Made by a program: the position numbers and the translations under genes. From assembly GCA_030613055.1 (NCBI GenBank), contig JAUWMR010000027.1, positions 1-51,956 on the forward strand: a stretch of 51,956 nt of DNA, written 5' to 3'. Numbering within the stretch: the first letter of the stretch is position 1; each line of letters begins with the position of its first letter. The DNA comes from Desulfobacteraceae bacterium. Lineage in GTDB: Bacteria; Desulfobacterota; DSM-4660; Desulfatiglandales; Desulfatiglandaceae. This document shows positions 465-50,563 of this stretch, in pieces. The notes under the pieces are model-generated. The model made no database searches and was not told where the DNA came from. It was given only the letters and a program-made list of their open reading frames with translations.

Positions 465-1514
465 TTACTCAACAACTATCTTTCCCTCTGGTTCGGACAC
501 TACGTCTCCGATAATGGCCGCTTCATTGATCCCGTTTTTTTTCAATTCAGCTAACAGATCATCAGCCCTATCCCTGTCCACACAAATCAGCAATCCCCCG
601 GATGTCTGGGGGTCAAATAGAACATCCTGAAGGAGTCGTCCCATAGTGGGATCAAAATTCACCATGCATTCGCGGAACTCGCGGTTATTATAAGTCCCGG
701 CAGGTACAAGACCCATACCGGCATAATCAAGGGTTTGGGGTAGAACGGGTATCTTGTCGCCCATGAGTCTTATCCCGAATGGCGAATCTATAATCATCTC
801 CGCAATATGACCCAAGAGACCAAAACCCGTAATATCAGTGCAGGCATGGACTGGGTAGTTATTCATGATCGCTGCCGCGTCCCTGTTAAGGGTTGCCATG
901 AGCCGGGTGACGGTTTCGATGATCTCGGCAGAGGCGAGGCCACCTTTAATGGCTGTGTTAATGATGCCCGTACCAAGCGGTTTGGTCAGTATCAGTTGAT
1001 CGCCTTGTTTAAGATTCTTCTTTGTAAGTACGCGATCCGGATGAACGAACCCGGTGACGGACAAGCCGTATTTCAGTTCTTTGTCCTCCACGCTGTGCCC
1101 TCCGACGAGGACAACACCAGCCTCTTTCATCTTATCCAACCCGCCCTGGATAATCTGACGGAGTATGGAAATGTCCATCTCCTTTATCGGGAAGGCCACC
1201 AGGTTCATGGCTGTTTTAGGAACACCTCCCATGGCATAGACATCACTCAAGGCATTTGCCGCTGCGATCTGCCCAAACCAGTAAGGATCATCCACAATGG
1301 GCGTAAAAAAATCCACGGTCTGGATAATAGCAAGATCATCGGTGACCTTGTAAACCCCGGCATCGTCAGCATGATCCAAACCAACAAGCACGTTCGGATC
1401 AGTGGGGAATTCAATGCCGCATAATGCCCTGTCCAGGTCCCCTGGAGGCAATTTTGATGCTCACCCTGAGCCTGCAACGGTTTCCGTGAGGCGAAGCGCT
1501 CTTGGGTCGGTCAT
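465..1514 (-). CDS. selD: Selenide, water dikinase, selenocysteine-containing
   Basis: SelD makes selenophosphate from selenide and ATP, the selenium donor for Sec-tRNA and selenouridine. The reading frame starts at ATG 1514 (AGGAG 7 nt upstream) and crosses an in-frame TGA at 1461-1463, codon 18, in the context GSGUASKLPPG. This is where SelD proteins carry the catalytic Cys or Sec. Reading through gives 349 aa, the normal family length. Other family motifs follow in order: DFFTPIVDDPYWFG, ANALSDVYAMGG, GGHSVED, LTKPLGTGI, CTDITGFGLLGH and DPQTSGG. A naive call would begin at the TTG at 1451 and lose the active-site loop. A hairpin just after the TGA can serve as SECIS. Confidence 0.95.
1426..1449 (-). 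promoter_or_regulatory. Candidate bacterial SECIS hairpin of selD
   Basis: Eleven nt after the UGA the mRNA can fold with CCAGG pairing to CCTGG around a GGA loop, extended below by GCCT with AGG(G)C. A small stem with G residues at the tip just 3' of the UGA is what SelB binds in bacteria. The fold was done by eye, not by energy calculation. Confidence 0.6.
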
Positions 1515-1612
1515 TAGTAGTCTCCTTTAATAAAATCGCTGTGCGATTTAATATGATCCCGCTTTCAGCGGGACTATGCCGCTTTCCACCCTACAAATCT
1601 AATTTTTTTTAC

Positions 1613-24900: not shown

Positions 24901-25623
24901 TCACAATAGATAGTCCGGGTTCACGTTTTTGAGGGCATGAAAGATATTTCCCTTTATCTTTTTGTTTGACATGTAGAATTGCTTGAGCATGTTCTTTATC
25001 TCTTCCCGTTTTGAAGACCCGGCGGTCGGGCAACCCAGATCAATCTCAGGCCAATCCATACTCATGGCGTATCGCTTTATAAGACCCTCATCAACTAAGT
25101 ACAAAGGCCGGATAACAGTCAACTCCCCTTTAAAAAACTCCTGGACCGGAAGCATGGTGCTGATGGAAGCCCCGTAGAAGACATTCAGGAAAAAGGTTTC
25201 GATCAGGTCGTCCTTGTGGTGTCCAAAGGCGAGCCTGTTGCAGCCGAGTTCCGCGGTCATCTCAAAAAGCAATTTTCTTCTAAGACGGGAGCATAAAAAG
25301 CACGGGTTTTCGCTGTTATCCGGCCCATGTGCCTTAGGACCTATATCGCTTTGAATAATCCTGCACTCAAAACCGTGGTCTGAAAAGAAGGTTTCCATCC
25401 GGCCTGCTGTATTGGCCCCGAAACCGGGATCCACATGCACTGCCGTAATCCTGTATTCAATTGGTATGCGTTTAATCCGTTCTCTCAAGAACCAGAGAAG
25501 GACCATACTGTCCCAGCCGCCCGAGACGGCAACCAACACGTGATCACCATCCCGGATCATATCAAGGGTGTAAATCGCCTTACCCATGAGGCGCTTTATC
25601 TCTTTGGCTGCATAATTCGTCAT
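24901..25623 (-). CDS. TtcA-like tRNA 2-thiocytidine/PP-loop ATPase
   Basis: 240 aa. The PP-loop SGGWDS (34-39) adenylates the tRNA base. The usual Lys of SGGKDS is Trp here. CFLCSRLRR (Cys108, Cys111) plus Cys198 in LGCPTAGS give the three Cys that hold a [4Fe-4S] cluster in TtcA. HHKDDLIETFFLN follows the family. TtcA puts sulfur on C32 of several tRNAs. The protein is shorter than E. coli TtcA (about 310 aa) and belongs to a broader TtcA/TilS group, so the exact base is uncertain. It lies 24 bp after yggS on the same strand. Confidence 0.78.
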   Translation of the reverse strand: MTNYAAKEIKRLMGKAIYTLDMIRDGDHVLVAVSGGWDSMVLLWFLRERIKRIPIEYRITAVHVDPGFGANTAGRMETFFSDHGFECRIIQSDIGPKAHGPDNSENPCFLCSRLRRKLLFEMTAELGCNRLAFGHHKDDLIETFFLNVFYGASISTMLPVQEFFKGELTVIRPLYLVDEGLIKRYAMSMDWPEIDLGCPTAGSSKREEIKNMLKQFYMSNKKIKGNIFHALKNVNPDYLL

Positions 25624-25647: not shown

Positions 25648-26307
25648 TCAATCATATTCCCGTTCCCCGAATAACTTCGTCCCGATTCTGACCATATTGG
25701 CCCCTTCTTCCAGGGCCACCCTGTATGAATTGGACATGCCCATGGAGAGATACCTCATCTCAACACCAGGCAGATTCATATCCTTTATTTCATCAAATAG
25801 TTTTTTTGTCTTCTGGAAATAGGGCCGGGCATCTTCAGGGTCCCCGGCAAAAGGCCCCATGGTCATAAGGCCCATGATCTGAACATTTTCCAGCTCCGAA
25901 ATTTCCTTGATTAACGATATGGCATCTTCAGGCAACACGCCCGCCTTTTGCGGTTCTTCACCGCTGTTTATCTCAATGAGCACCAGCATGACCTTTCCGA
26001 TATTAGCACATGCCCTGTCAATCGCCCTGGCAAGCTTGATGGAGTCCACAGTCTCAATCATATCGAAGATCTTGACTGCCTTTTTTGCCTTATTAGACTG
26101 CAAGTGACCTATCATATGCCATTTTGCCTTTTCACCTACTACCTCGAATGCCTTTTCAGCCTCTTGAACATAATTTTCCCCGACTATCTTTAGACCCGCC
26201 TCAACGCTCTCAAGAATCTCCTCAGGTGTCCTTGTCTTGGCGGCTCCAACAAGCTCAACACCCTCCGTCAGTTCTTCTAAAATCTCTTTCACACTATCTT
26301 TGATCAT
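25648..26307 (-). CDS. yggS: YggS/PROSC-family PLP-binding protein
   Basis: 219 aa, single TIM-barrel. The PLP Lys is Lys24 in GAAKTRTPEEI. KIVGENYVQEAEKA, WHMIGHLQSNKAKK, MGLMTMGPF and RYLSMGMSNSYRVALEEGANMVRIGTKLFG follow in family order. These proteins keep free PLP in balance and affect amino-acid pools. It probably shares a transcript with the ttcA-like gene. Confidence 0.93.
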   Translation of the reverse strand: MIKDSVKEILEELTEGVELVGAAKTRTPEEILESVEAGLKIVGENYVQEAEKAFEVVGEKAKWHMIGHLQSNKAKKAVKIFDMIETVDSIKLARAIDRACANIGKVMLVLIEINSGEEPQKAGVLPEDAISLIKEISELENVQIMGLMTMGPFAGDPEDARPYFQKTKKLFDEIKDMNLPGVEMRYLSMGMSNSYRVALEEGANMVRIGTKLFGEREYD

Positions 26308-26514
26308 AACTGTTCTCCTTTAGAAACTTATTGTATAACCCATTCGATATAAACTTTCTATGACCACTTTTTGTTGATGATTTGTGGCTTTCCAGAATCT
26401 TACCAGTACAGCCTTCATTTTCCAAGCTTGAAATATTTTGTGATGAACTATATATTTGATCCGGGAAGATCGCGAATTAAAGAATCATATAATGACATGT
26501 ACGGAGGAGATAAT

Positions 26515-26949
26515 ATGACACATGAAGACAGGGGCCATTATGCCAAGAAGCACCAACCTGACCGTCAGGTACGTCCGGAAATCGCCGAGGCTGTGAAGCA
26601 AAATGCCTCAAAGGGAGAAATATCGTGCGCCGCGGCCCACAAAATTGCGCGATATCAAAATGTGCCCCCGGCAGAGGTGGGATTTACCATAGATTCACTT
26701 GAGATACGTATTGTCAAATGCCAGTTGGGGCTTCACGGCTATCGTCCTGATAAGAAAATTGTTAAGCCGGCAGAAACCGTCTCGCAGGACCTGCAAGAGA
26801 CAATACACGATTCCCTGACGGACGGAAGACTTTCCTGCGCGGCTATATGGGATATTGCCAAAAAGATGAGGATGGCAAGGATGGAGGTCTCCTCGGCCTG
26901 TGAAACCTTAGGAGTTAAAATCTATTCCTGCCAGTTGGGTGCCTTCTAA
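26515..26949 (+). CDS. Unknown protein with a duplicated SCAA...CQLG domain
   Basis: 144 aa, ATG at 26515 behind GGAGGAGAT. Two copies of a roughly 55-residue unit are visible. The first reads IAEAVKQNASKGEISCAAAH...CQLGLHGY (about 22-80), the second LQETIHDSLTDGRLSCAAIW...CQLGAF (about 92-144). Each has SCAA after an acidic-Gly turn, a short helical stretch with IA, and a closing CQLG. The pattern looks like a small helix-turn-helix with one Cys at each end. Two conserved Cys per unit could bind a metal or form a disulfide. I do not recognise a named family. It is monocistronic and divergent from yggS. Confidence 0.75.
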   Translation: MTHEDRGHYAKKHQPDRQVRPEIAEAVKQNASKGEISCAAAHKIARYQNVPPAEVGFTIDSLEIRIVKCQLGLHGYRPDKKIVKPAETVSQDLQETIHDSLTDGRLSCAAIWDIAKKMRMARMEVSSACETLGVKIYSCQLGAF

Positions 26950-27527: not shown

Positions 27528-27842
27528 TTAACAACTACAGGAACTCCCGCACGAAGCGCCCGCAGACATGCTTGAAGAAATGTCAAATCCTGCACCCATA
27601 TAGGAGTTAACATAATCCACCTTTACGGGTTTTATCATTTCATACAATCCCTTCTCAATCATATATGTGATATCCCTGTCATCGAATACTTCATCCTTGT
27701 CTCTTGGCTCATCCAGAGCCATGCCCAGCGAGGGGCCGGATCACCCGCCCTGAGACAGTACAATTCGTATTCCCGGAATTTCTTCCTTGTCTTTTAAGAG
27801 TTCTTTAATCTTCTCGCTTGCCTTTTCCGTAATCTCAAACAT
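27528..27842 (-). CDS. HesB/IscA-like selenoprotein
   Basis: ATG at 27842 behind AAAGGAGG; 104 aa if the in-frame TGA at 27741-27743 (codon 34) is read as Sec. The context LSQGGUSGPSLGMALDEP aligns with GGCSG of IscA/HesB proteins, so Sec replaces the first cluster-binding Cys. The protein ends in a Cys-rich tail (SCGSSCSC), typical of this selenoprotein family. HesB-like selenoproteins are known in anaerobes. A role in Fe-S or selenium handling is presumed. Without readthrough one would call only 64 aa from the downstream ATG. A hairpin lies 19 nt after the UGA. Confidence 0.92.
27705..27721 (-). promoter_or_regulatory. Candidate bacterial SECIS hairpin of the HesB-like gene
   Basis: In the mRNA, TGGCTC and GAGCCA form a perfect 6-bp stem around a TGGAT loop, beginning 20 nt after the UGA. 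A GG in the tip loop is the feature SelB recognises. Confidence 0.7.
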
Positions 27843-28010: not shown

Positions 28011-28661
28011 TCAGAAGGGTTCTTCTGCCAGCCGCTGTCGCAGCCATATCAAAATCTTGTCAAACTCTCTTCCAAGCTCTGCCATAGCCTTTCCACGATG
28101 GCTCACACTATTTTTTTCCCTGGAAGACAACTCTGCAAATGTCTTCTTGAGGGGCGGATAGTAAAAAAGAGGGTCATATCCAAATCCCTGGCCGCCGATC
28201 AAGTCCCTGGTGACAAGGCCATTACAGGTCCCCTCATATATGAGGGCAGGCCCTCTGGGAACGGCAATTGCAAGCACACACATAAAGGTGGCCTCTCTGT
28301 CCTTTACACCTTCCATGGCCTTGAGGAGCTTGAGGTTATTGGTCTGGTCAGTGGCGCCCTCCCCCGCATACCTCGCGGAGTAAACCCCCGGCATCCCATC
28401 AAGAGCCTTTACAATGAGACCGGAGTCATCCGCAAGTGCCGGCAGACCTAAGACCTTTGCTGTAAAGGCCGCCTTCTTGTAAGCATTATCCTCAAAAGTA
28501 TTTCCATCCTCCTCAACCGGGGGAATAGGACCAAAATCCTTAAGACTCCTGATCTCAACGCTATAATCAGCCACAAGACCCTTAAACTCGGAAATCTTGC
28601 CTTCATTCCGCGTGGCCAATACCAGCGGTCTTTCCAGACCCTTTTTACCTGAATTACTCAT
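28011..28661 (-). CDS. rdgB: Non-canonical purine NTP pyrophosphatase
   Basis: 216 aa Ham1/RdgB family: LVLATRNEGKISEFKGL at the start, FEDNAYKKA, ALADDSGLIVKALDG, GFGYDPLFYYPP and VSHRGKAMAEL. It hydrolyses ITP, dITP and XTP to monophosphates, clearing deaminated purines. The gene follows pgi by 10 bp and is almost certainly co-transcribed with it. The 168-bp gap to the HesB-like gene has no visible terminator, so the three may be one operon. Confidence 0.95.
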   Translation of the reverse strand: MSNSGKKGLERPLVLATRNEGKISEFKGLVADYSVEIRSLKDFGPIPPVEEDGNTFEDNAYKKAAFTAKVLGLPALADDSGLIVKALDGMPGVYSARYAGEGATDQTNNLKLLKAMEGVKDREATFMCVLAIAVPRGPALIYEGTCNGLVTRDLIGGQGFGYDPLFYYPPLKKTFAELSSREKNSVSHRGKAMAELGREFDKILIWLRQRLAEEPF

Positions 28662-28671
28662 ACCGGCAGGC

Positions 28672-30183
28672 TCAAATCCTAATCCTTTTTACTTTATTCA
28701 GGTTTTTTTCGATATTTGTCGCGTTTTCCTCAAAACCTGGTTTTCCGATCAATGCGAACATTGCCTGTTTATATGCCTCCACACCGGGCTGGATAAACGG
28801 ATTGTGGCCGAACAGATACCCGGCTATGGCAACTGATCTTTCCATCATATAATAGAACTGCCCTAAGTTATAAGCGTTCCTTTTCGGAATCTCCACTGTC
28901 ATATTTGGAACCCCTCCCTGATAATGGGCGTATGCCGGGCCATCAATCACCTTTCTGTTGACAAACCCCATATCCAGGCCCCTGTCCGAAAGAAAACCAA
29001 GCCCATCTGAGTCTTCATCCATATTAGGAATTGGAATCCGGTTATCGTGCTCCAAGAGCAGCAAAAAGGTTTCGAGGATATTCCTTTCTCCCTGCTGGAC
29101 CGCCTGTCCGTTTGCATGAAGTTTTTCCGAATAGAAAGAGGGGGAAACCCATAAGCCGTGACCATTATGGCCTTCGCTTTCAGGAAATAACTGCTCCATC
29201 CACCTTGCAACAAAAAAAAGAGAGGCGGCATTTGTAGCCACCACTTCGATCTTTTTGCCCTTAAGCCAGGAAACATGTCGTAAGGCAGCATGTACCAGTG
29301 AAGGATTCTGCCAGAAATCATCATTATGTGCGATCCTGTGCATGTTTTTAAAACCTGCCACAAATTCCTCAATATCAATATTGGCCATGGCCAACCCCAC
29401 CAGCCCTACATCCGTTAAGACCGAAAACCTCCCCCCGATGTTATCCGGGATAATGAATGTGCGGTAGCCTTTCCGGTCCGCCATTTTTTTTAAAGCGCCT
29501 TTCACCCTGTCCGTGGTCGCAAGAATCATCCGGTCAGACTTATCACCCCAGTTGTCTTCCATTAACTTCCGGATAATCCTGAATGCAATGGCCGTTTCCG
29601 TTGTAGTCCCGGACTTGGATATGACATTGATGCCGATTCGCTTTCCCTCTAACATATCCAGGGTGTCCCGAAAATAATCCGGGTCCATATTATTGCCCAA
29701 GAAATAGACCTCCGGCGCACCACCCCTCTGTTCCCTGCTCAACTGGTTGAAGTACTGGTGGGTAAGTGCCCGAAACGTAGATTCTATTCCCAGATAAGAC
29801 CCCCCGATACCAAGGGAAACAAAGACATCAATTTCATTAGCAATCTCTTTTGCAACGGTCTTTATCTCGTCTAAATTTTCTCCGCTTATCTCTAACGGGA
29901 GGTTTTGCCAGCCTGTCATTGGGATATCTCCATCACAAATATCCCCTTCGCTATTTTTTAGCATTTGATGCGCCTTCATTATTTCGGGAATCAGCTTATC
30001 CACATCCTCGCGAGTGATAGCTCCTTTGCCCGGCGCATCAAATATATATGTAAGATCCAGGTAAATCCTGTTGGCCGCCCTGAAATCATCCGATTCAAAT
30101 GGCTGCTGTTCCCGCTGTCCCCTTCGAATCTGCTCTTTGATGGTTTCATTTTCTCCTATTTCAATTAGCTTTAATCCTTGCAT
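28672..30183 (-). CDS. pgi: Glucose-6-phosphate isomerase
   Basis: 503 aa from ATG 30183 (MQGLKLIEIG), preferred because GGAG precedes it; an in-frame ATG at 30237 lacks a site. Key family segments: FVSLGIGGSYLG, ISKSGTTTETAIAF, DNIGGRFSVLT and SEGHNGHGLWVS, with YKQAMFALIGKPG near the end. It interconverts glucose-6-P and fructose-6-P. First gene of the pgi-rdgB pair. The 310 bp upstream holds short repeats (CCAATTTCCAATTATC near 30295 and a partial inverse near 30345) and no clear promoter. Confidence 0.94.
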   Translation of the reverse strand: MQGLKLIEIGENETIKEQIRRGQREQQPFESDDFRAANRIYLDLTYIFDAPGKGAITREDVDKLIPEIMKAHQMLKNSEGDICDGDIPMTGWQNLPLEISGENLDEIKTVAKEIANEIDVFVSLGIGGSYLGIESTFRALTHQYFNQLSREQRGGAPEVYFLGNNMDPDYFRDTLDMLEGKRIGINVISKSGTTTETAIAFRIIRKLMEDNWGDKSDRMILATTDRVKGALKKMADRKGYRTFIIPDNIGGRFSVLTDVGLVGLAMANIDIEEFVAGFKNMHRIAHNDDFWQNPSLVHAALRHVSWLKGKKIEVVATNAASLFFVARWMEQLFPESEGHNGHGLWVSPSFYSEKLHANGQAVQQGERNILETFLLLLEHDNRIPIPNMDEDSDGLGFLSDRGLDMGFVNRKVIDGPAYAHYQGGVPNMTVEIPKRNAYNLGQFYYMMERSVAIAGYLFGHNPFIQPGVEAYKQAMFALIGKPGFEENATNIEKNLNKVKRIRI

Positions 30184-30493
30184 GGCATTCTCCGGATGGA
30201 GCACATTTCTATTATAACCAATAACGTAACAGCTCAATATTTCGGGGTATAATATTTACAGCAAAGGGTACGAAGAGACAGAGTACAAAAATATCCAATT
30301 TCCAATTATCAATAACCAATGTCCAATGAAAAACACTTAAAACTTGGAAATTGAGCATTCGATATTGGATATTATCTTACGGTCGCATCCACATTTCTTC
30401 GTGATCTTTGTGGTGATCAATTTCCTTTCGTTTTATGTAGGCGTTGTTATGTACTGAAAGCCCCTGGTTATTGAGAAGATAAGATTTTACTGC

Positions 30494-49206: not shown

Positions 49207-49224
49207 TAATATAACCACCATGAT

Positions 49225-49293
49225 AAGGCAAAACCCATTGTGAAATGGGGGCGGAAACCTACGGATCTTAAAATGAGATGACCGGGTTGCCTT
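49225..49293 (+). ncRNA. Cyclic-di-GMP (GEMM-I) riboswitch aptamer
   Basis: AAGGCA (49225-49230) pairs with TGCCTT (49288-49293) as P1. CCCATT-GTGA-AATGGG forms the P1b/P2 hairpin with a GNRA tetraloop. GCGGAAACCTACGG matches the conserved GACGCAAAGCC-type core, and ATCT/AGAT closes the third arm. The base before CAAAA is G, as in c-di-GMP binders; the cAMP-GMP variant has a change there. Confidence 0.87.
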
Positions 49294-49318
49294 GGGAAAA
49301 GTAACCCGGCTTTTGTTT
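49282..49318 (+). terminator. Riboswitch expression platform (intrinsic terminator)
   Basis: CCGGGTT (49282-49288) and AACCCGG (49303-49309) form a stem followed by CTTTTGTTT. The left arm overlaps the 3' side of aptamer P1, so ligand binding should prevent the terminator: an ON switch. Confidence 0.75.
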
Positions 49319-49524: not shown

Positions 49525-49647
49525 CTGACCAAAACGAAGCGAACGTTCAATATCATATGTCTGGCCATGCTCTTATCGATGGTTTTCGCAAATAGCATTG
49601 GTGCTATGACGTTTCGATTTGGCGACACGGTTTATTATTGGGAATGA
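49525..49647 (+). pseudogene. Orphan signal-peptide-like reading frame in the leader
   Basis: From CTG 49525 the frame reads TKTKRTFNIICLAMLLSMVF and on through ANSIGAMTFRFGDTVYYWE to TGA at 49645-49647. It has basic, hydrophobic and small-residue parts like a secretion signal. There is no ATG before it (first in-frame ATG 49567) and no good ribosome site. It looks like the decayed start of another exported protein, 7 nt before the next ATG. A leader peptide is the alternative. Confidence 0.45.
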
Positions 49648-49654
49648 TGAATTA

Positions 49655-50563
49655 ATGGAAGTTCGTAAACGACAAAACCTGATCATAATTGCAGTCTTGG
49701 CTGCGATTGCCTTAATTTGTGCGCCAAATTCCTCTACGGCGGCCACAATCGACGGTATTGTCACCTCTGGTGAATACAGCAATGGCATTATCTACGATGT
49801 CGACCTCGGATACATGTCTGATGGAAATTGGGTGGATGTTGATGCGGATGGAAAGCTCTATCTAGATTGGAATACGATCAACCAACTTGCCGTGGCTTAT
49901 GAAGTTCCGATTGGCATCAACGATAACTATTTTGGCACCAGTTCTCAACTGCATCCTACGGCGCCATGGCCCGGAAGCGGTCGTGACTATGGCGCCTTAG
50001 AGGCCAGTGACATGGCACGGTTTGAATTTCAAGACGATATAGGGGGCGTGCTTCTCACTTTTCAAATGGATTATTTTCGTGATCCCAACCTGCCTGACCA
50101 AACTGTAGGGCAAGGAAAGGATAAATACCAAATTGATACCACAAAGAATTCTTTTGTTATGTTTGGCGGCAGTACTACCATATACAATCCCGGAACAGCA
50201 GAATTTGATAATACGATATTCGATATGGCCACTTCATTGATGTGGAATTACTCAACAGGTGGTTATACATTTGATGATGCGGATCAGAATTCGCCAACAC
50301 CCGACGATCCCAATTACGTGGGCAAAATAATTTATGAGTTCCTGATTGATACCACCGACTTCAACGGTTTCGGATTGTTACTGGCGGACTCCCATCATTC
50401 ACCATCAAAACTTGAAATAGAATCGTTTAGCCCCCCGCCTGATACGCCGTATGACCCGCCTCCAATCCCCGAACCTGGCACTATTTTTCTCCTGGGAACC
50501 GGTCTTATCGGTGCCGGGTTAACCTGCCGCAAAAGATTTAGGAAATTAAGGACAACCCTATAA
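49655..50563 (+). CDS. PEP-CTERM-sorted exported protein
   Basis: 302 aa from ATG 49655 (MEVRKRQNLIIIAVLAAIAL). Signal peptide ends near SSTAA. The mature part is acidic with aromatic, Asp/Asn-rich segments (GEYSNGIIYDVDLGYMSDGN, DYFRDPNLPD) and no known catalytic domain. The C terminus is classical: IPEPGTIFLLGTGLIGAGLT followed by CRKRFRKL, with PEP motif, helix and basic end. Exosortase cleaves such tails. Expression appears doubly controlled by sigma-54 and a riboswitch. No exosortase or EPS genes are in the window. Confidence 0.9.
   Translation: MEVRKRQNLIIIAVLAAIALICAPNSSTAATIDGIVTSGEYSNGIIYDVDLGYMSDGNWVDVDADGKLYLDWNTINQLAVAYEVPIGINDNYFGTSSQLHPTAPWPGSGRDYGALEASDMARFEFQDDIGGVLLTFQMDYFRDPNLPDQTVGQGKDKYQIDTTKNSFVMFGGSTTIYNPGTAEFDNTIFDMATSLMWNYSTGGYTFDDADQNSPTPDDPNYVGKIIYEFLIDTTDFNGFGLLLADSHHSPSKLEIESFSPPPDTPYDPPPIPEPGTIFLLGTGLIGAGLTCRKRFRKLRTTL

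Follow-up and report, generated by a model that had tools for sequence, protein, structure and literature searches.

A gene of the IscA/HesB family in the window analysed here (a whole stretch of 51,956 nt from a Desulfobacteraceae bacterium) almost certainly reads an in-frame TGA, its codon 34, as selenocysteine (Sec), and we lean towards the fuller reading in which the resulting selenoprotein also serves the organism as its A-type carrier of Fe-S clusters and uses Sec as a ligand. In the literature, HesB-like selenoproteins as such go back to 2005 or earlier; they appear in papers of 2005 and 2006 and in reviews that came later, according to excerpts of these (PMC1088965, PMC1794560, PMC9312934, PMC13188914), and in an excerpt of another paper their function is described as not clear (PMC11097638). 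The family is already catalogued, and the window gene adds one more HesB-like selenoprotein to it. What is new here is that the gene is the sole A-type homologue found in its genome, that canonical carriers look rare in the phylum (22/394 genomes), and that the C-terminal cysteines are shifted relative to IscA. A literature search on the family name NF038090 found no paper, and none was found that joined HesB, Fe-S cluster, selenoprotein and Desulfovibrio.

The preliminary description of this DNA had placed the TGA exactly at the Cys of a GGCSG motif, within an ORF whose 104-aa product ends in SCGSSCSC, and all of this was borne out (Table 1). With TGA translated as U, the product reads MFEITEKASEKIKELLKDKEEIPGIRIVLSQGGUSGPSLGMALDEPRDKDEVFDDRDITYMIEKGLYEMIKPVKVDYVNSYMGAGFDISSSMSAGASCGSSCSC, the motif round Sec34 being QGGUSGPSLGMALDEP and the C-terminus GASCGSSCSC. 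No intrinsic terminator was seen directly 3' of the gene, and the nearest one on the same strand lies at 27084-27049.

Table 1. Features of the Sec-containing gene and of its surroundings, in window coordinates.
Feature	Position	Strand	Details
Sec-containing IscA/HesB-family gene	27528..27842	(-)	104 codons + TAA; translated with TGA=U
Sec codon 34 (TGA)	27743-27741	(-)	sole in-frame TGA; at the conserved Cys of GGCSG
Start ATG; stop TAA	27842; 27530-27528	(-)	ends of the 104-aa ORF
Shine-Dalgarno-like AGGAGG	27853-27848	(-)	5 nt ahead of ATG; read from the sequence
SECIS hairpin TGGCTC-TGGAT-GAGCCA	27721-27705	(-)	6-bp stem; loop GG at 27714-27713
C-terminal Cys tail CGSSCSC (Cys98, Cys102, Cys104)	27531..27551	(-)	
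rdgB (XTP/dITP diphosphatase)	28011..28661	(-)	NF011397, 273 bits, cut-off 234; 28/123 loci
pgi (glucose-6-phosphate isomerase)	28672..30237	(-)	NF010697, 465 bits, cut-off 443; 13/123 loci
192-aa ORF (orf192)	26371-26949	(+)	no Pfam/NCBIfam match; 24/123 loci
yggS-family PLP protein	25648..26307	(-)	TIGR00044, 177 bits, cut-off 106; 18/123 loci
TtcA-like PP-loop protein	24901..25623	(-)	best NCBIfam TtcA, 184.6 bits, below cut-off 272; 18/123 loci
selD	465-1535	(-)	in-frame TGA in N-terminal motif, GSGUASK

Among 99 genomes searched for relatives, the gene's own included, 59 held a member above the cut-off of the NCBIfam model NF038090, and exactly one in-frame TGA was present in 58 of the 63 such matches, the remaining five having none. 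Across the phylum an over-cut-off member was found in 170 of 394 genomes, and most family matches, among the matches listed, again carry one in-frame TGA. A pool of 189 fetched sequences, which includes SelB, tRNA and similar loci without a family member, yielded 202 family matches (200 of them above 60 bits); once genes identical over 150 nt had been merged and those with less flank left out, 155 distinct genes could be compared at the codon-34 site, where TGA occurs in 120, TGC or TGT in 35, and no other codon at all. This 120:35 ratio of Sec to Cys is not a population frequency, because loci were picked from the match lists starting with the best and sampling across families. The 14 loci from one contig scan are likewise unusable for the frequency of Sec, because the scan favoured Cys forms, Sec copies being found there only beside Cys copies; this bias is probably due to a pattern back-translated from C. 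One relative, strain NaphS2 (contig ADZZ01000159.1), has Cys at the site and GCG GTG where Sec genes have GCT CTG. A tblastn search of plasmids returned no match, and the 28 stretches found in viral contigs included no relative.

That the TGA is instead a true stop, an assembly error or the mark of a pseudogene, so that only 33 aa or a 64-aa form starting at Met41 would be made, has next to no probability in our view. The preliminary description had named relatives that stop at this site and use only the 64-aa form as the case that would overturn the Sec reading; what was found is that residues 1-33 are conserved at the protein level and that, among the 155 genes compared, relatives without TGA always have Cys. 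Between the window gene and 25 relatives the median pN/pS is 0.14 upstream of the TGA and 0.27 downstream, and over 32 closer pairs the values are 0.22 and 0.36. Judged by these ratios, the protein is under purifying selection on both sides of the TGA, and therefore the 64-aa-only alternative is out. The retention of TGA at codon 34 phylum-wide and the replacement of Sec always by Cys also speak against a stop, as does the conservation of the hairpin with its double changes, described next.

In bacterial Sec decoding, SelB delivers Sec-tRNA(Sec) to a UGA that stands ahead of an mRNA hairpin. The window gene has, as had been pointed out from its letters, a 6-bp stem with a GG loop 19 nt 3' of the TGA, which agrees with the bacterial pattern of a hairpin close 3' of UGA with a G in a small apical loop. 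Taken by itself this hairpin is weak evidence, and its unremarkable folding is the one point that suits a true stop: a single-sequence fold of 56 nt is not unusual (z -0.88), the same 6 bp and GG arose in 402 of 20,000 random synonymous recodings, and a hairpin of any kind with 6 bp or more and a G in its loop arose in 4,786 of 20,000. A scan of the window against Rfam found no Sec element. The comparison of relatives is another matter, as the inner 4 bp and GG loop are kept in 117/120 Sec genes versus 2/35 Cys genes (Fisher p 7e-28, although Fisher values overstate independence here, the sequences being related), and on this ground a chance hairpin was rejected. Of the three exceptions among the Sec genes, L066 and L183 have another hairpin and L073 has the usual one shifted by one codon. 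The Ala codon of the hairpin is GCT in 106 of the 108 Sec genes with Ala and in 7 of 24 Cys genes, and the loop Leu codon is CTG in all 118 Sec genes compared and in 13 of 29 Cys genes, whereas at a control Leu, four codons further upstream, just 57 of 111 Sec genes use CTG. By this comparison the hairpin-forming codons are frozen, even though synonyms would spare the protein. GCT goes with GAG in 106 Sec genes and GTT (Val) with GAA (Glu) in 11, a change of a C-G to a U-A pair; Val GTT always stands with Glu GAA and not GAG, and therefore the base pair is restored, while the mismatched GCT with GAA occurs in no Sec gene and in three Cys genes. A quick protein tree places at least three changes in this pair, affecting both sides each time, and the covariation amounts to few independent events (three on the best tree, one on supported branches). 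As comparative evidence, the joint conservation of TGA, hairpin and flanking protein is overwhelming.

The host genome (4.26 Mb in 97 contigs, 95.6% complete) has the machinery for Sec decoding, with matches to SelA (622 bits), SelB (392 bits) and tRNA-Sec (71.7 bits). Its selenophosphate synthetase, SelD, is probably itself a selenoprotein, judging from the in-frame TGA in its N-terminal motif. The preliminary description had put the gene far from the selenium island, and selD there is indeed about 26 kb off. SelB was found in 355 of the 394 phylum genomes; at least seven genomes with the TGA form (G046, G093, G122, G172, G185, G212, G218) had no SelB match at E 1e-60, of which incomplete assemblies may be the cause.

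With respect to family, the protein matches NF038090 (IscA_HesB_Se) over its full length with 123 bits (cut-off 85), and Pfam PF01521 with 35.9 bits (cut-off 26.3). The same NCBIfam model was matched at E 0.001 by 33 of 33 aligned relatives, Sec or Cys stands at the GG(U/C)xG position, and no difference was found that would set the window gene apart from other members. The earlier reading as a HesB/IscA-like selenoprotein with Sec for Cys is supported by these scores and by the comparison of relatives; as to the exact family, the protein belongs to NF038090 and not to TIGR01911 (HesB_rel_seleno), where it scores 42.3 bits and the cut-off is 66.35. TIGR01911 is, in excerpts of two reviews, the model given for HesB-like selenoproteins (PMC9312934, PMC13188914). 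It belongs to the same homology group, and the U-x-G-P motif listed in the excerpt of PMC13188914 is also present in the window protein; the model has 92 positions, and the Cys tail falls beyond it. Scores to IscA, SufA and ErpA (39.9, 47.5 and 45.5 bits) stay far below the respective equivalog cut-offs of 150.6, 136.2 and 117.

An AlphaFold2 model built from 17 sequences (pLDDT 82) resembles structures of IscA and SufA. In Foldseek the predicted model matched 1r94 at E 4.9e-7 with probability 1.00, and the TM-score over the query was 0.74 to 1r94 and 0.71 to 1x0g, an IscA with a [2Fe-2S] cluster; the DsrR structure 2k4z was also among the matches (E 2.7e-4). The predicted fold is that of IscA/HesB, i.e., of A-type carriers, and the window protein shares with IscA, SufA and ErpA both this predicted fold and the position of the first ligand Cys. 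In canonical A-type carriers one internal Cys and two in a CGC motif serve as the three ligands, and the window protein departs from this set: the internal Cys is replaced by Sec, and only one Cys of CGC is aligned. In a profile alignment to the Aquifex protein 1nwb, Cys98 falls on the second Cys of CGC and Cys104 on a final Cys, Cys102 stands as an extra Cys at a Phe position, and nothing in the window protein matches the first Cys of CGC; its tail, CGSSCSC, does not preserve the canonical CGCG. Cys98 is nevertheless invariant in the 33-sequence alignment, where Cys102 and Cys104 are conserved at 90% or more. Since tail residues 95-104 have pLDDT below 50, no ligand geometry can be read from the model. 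Sec34 would sit at the Fe-S binding position, a placement drawn from homology, and because the tail is shifted relative to IscA, the ligand set would be Sec34 plus a rearranged tail.

From these features we infer cluster binding, Sec as a ligand, a carrier role and a scaffold partner. The mRNA hairpin would recruit SelB with Sec-tRNA(Sec), giving the 104-aa selenoprotein; a scaffold, for which the genome has three IscU/NifU_N matches and one SUFBD_core match as candidates, would supply this protein with an Fe-S cluster or with iron, which it would bind through Sec34, Cys98, Cys102 and Cys104 and hand on to client enzymes. Counting against a carrier, apart from the altered tail, no gene for Fe-S assembly is found among the five scanned neighbours or among those that recur in relatives. 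In an excerpt of PMC11097638, an unpublished remark states that an M. maripaludis mutant in a HesB-like selenoprotein fixed nitrogen normally.

The same residues could instead serve a thiol/selenol redox protein built on the IscA fold and carrying no cluster, in which Sec34 and a tail Cys would form a selenenylsulfide and reduce peroxides or disulfides. We hold this to be unlikely. The Cys-rich tail is displaced relative to IscA, the family is common across a phylum in which canonical carriers seem scarce, and an excerpt of PMC13188914 states that the majority of uncharacterized selenoproteins in prokaryotes are regarded as redox proteins; all this would suit such a protein. The protein has, however, no UxxC or CxxU motif, and its structural matches are to IscA and SufA and to no redox folds. 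In the alignments, moreover, Sec occupies the position of an IscA Cys that we take to be a cluster ligand. A third reading, which we find quite improbable, is a sensor or chaperone for metal, selenium or sulfur, comparable with DsrR, a protein of the same fold; it would bind soft metals or persulfide and no Fe-S cluster. The match to DsrR and a neighbourhood with no tie to Fe-S assembly are in line with it, and a selenol with three thiols would make a strong soft-metal site; yet a carrier would account equally well or better for the conserved Cys/Sec and for tail cysteines that are almost universal, and no resistance or transport gene recurs nearby in the named neighbour clusters.

In favour of a carrier, the window gene is at the default threshold the sole PF01521 match in its genome, so no second carrier was seen at the search sensitivity used. 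A PF01521 threshold of E 1e-12, which excludes the window gene itself (E 2.1e-6), gave matches in 22 of 394 phylum genomes; these we take to be mostly canonical carriers, which on this count look rare in the phylum. An over-cut-off NF038090 member was present in 4 of these 22 genomes (G167, G408, G424 and G440) versus 166 of the 372 others (Fisher p 0.015, the counts being read from match lists and the genomes being related), and therefore the family seems as a rule to be the sole A-type-fold protein where it is present, a status checked at the permissive threshold for the window's genome. An excerpt of a 2009 survey reports A-type carriers to be absent from many Delta-Proteobacteria (PMC2682760), yet this carrier-fold family is present in 170 of the 394 phylum genomes; the survey presumably passed over the Sec genes because of the TGA. 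That a selenoprotein with a selenolate and a rearranged three-Cys tail as ligands replaces IscA/ErpA as the sole A-type carrier of anaerobes across much of the phylum is a tentative extension that we rate as doubtful. If true, nature would have an Fe-S carrier with selenium as a ligand, which may have escaped notice through the truncation of Sec genes at TGA by gene callers. Should Sec prove to be a cluster ligand, the reason for selenium in a carrier would become visible in this family.

The genes round the selenoprotein gene point to no particular process. It had been described as close to pgi and rdgB, and both are the next genes upstream. The order pgi, rdgB, the gene itself, orf192, yggS and the ttcA-like gene is found mostly in the window's family and in two families of its order, and pfk, near a HesB-like gene in 15 of 123 loci, and clpB are neighbours in other families; the names pfk, clpB and argJ are our presumptive assignments from the sequences. 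A fixed partner pathway was rejected because the neighbours are lineage-bound, and the recurring neighbours look like lineage synteny with no shared pathway. Elsewhere in the window, a c-di-GMP-I riboswitch (49218-49294, plus strand, 42 bits) precedes an ORF at 49619-50563, with what we take to be a PEP-CTERM-like C-terminus.

The fetched loci include 16 distinct places (L002, L078, L079, L081, L082, L131-L133, L145, L146, L148, L153, L175, L184-L186) where a Sec copy adjoins a Cys copy on the same strand, in either order, and such tandems could be pairs for selenium-replete and selenium-starved conditions. The only use of the word 'tandem' in the excerpt of PMC9312934 is in the title of a reference. 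Two Cys genes, in L076 (938-1249) and L080 (10001-10309), retain the inner stem of the SECIS and the GG loop, and appear to be relics, as after a recent change from Sec to Cys; an excerpt of PMC1794560 indicates that SECIS-like relics had been described for a HesB-like gene in 2006. Second copies in two genomes (L069 and L070, from G029 and G037) have Cys at the site and a short C-terminus without the usual Cys tail.
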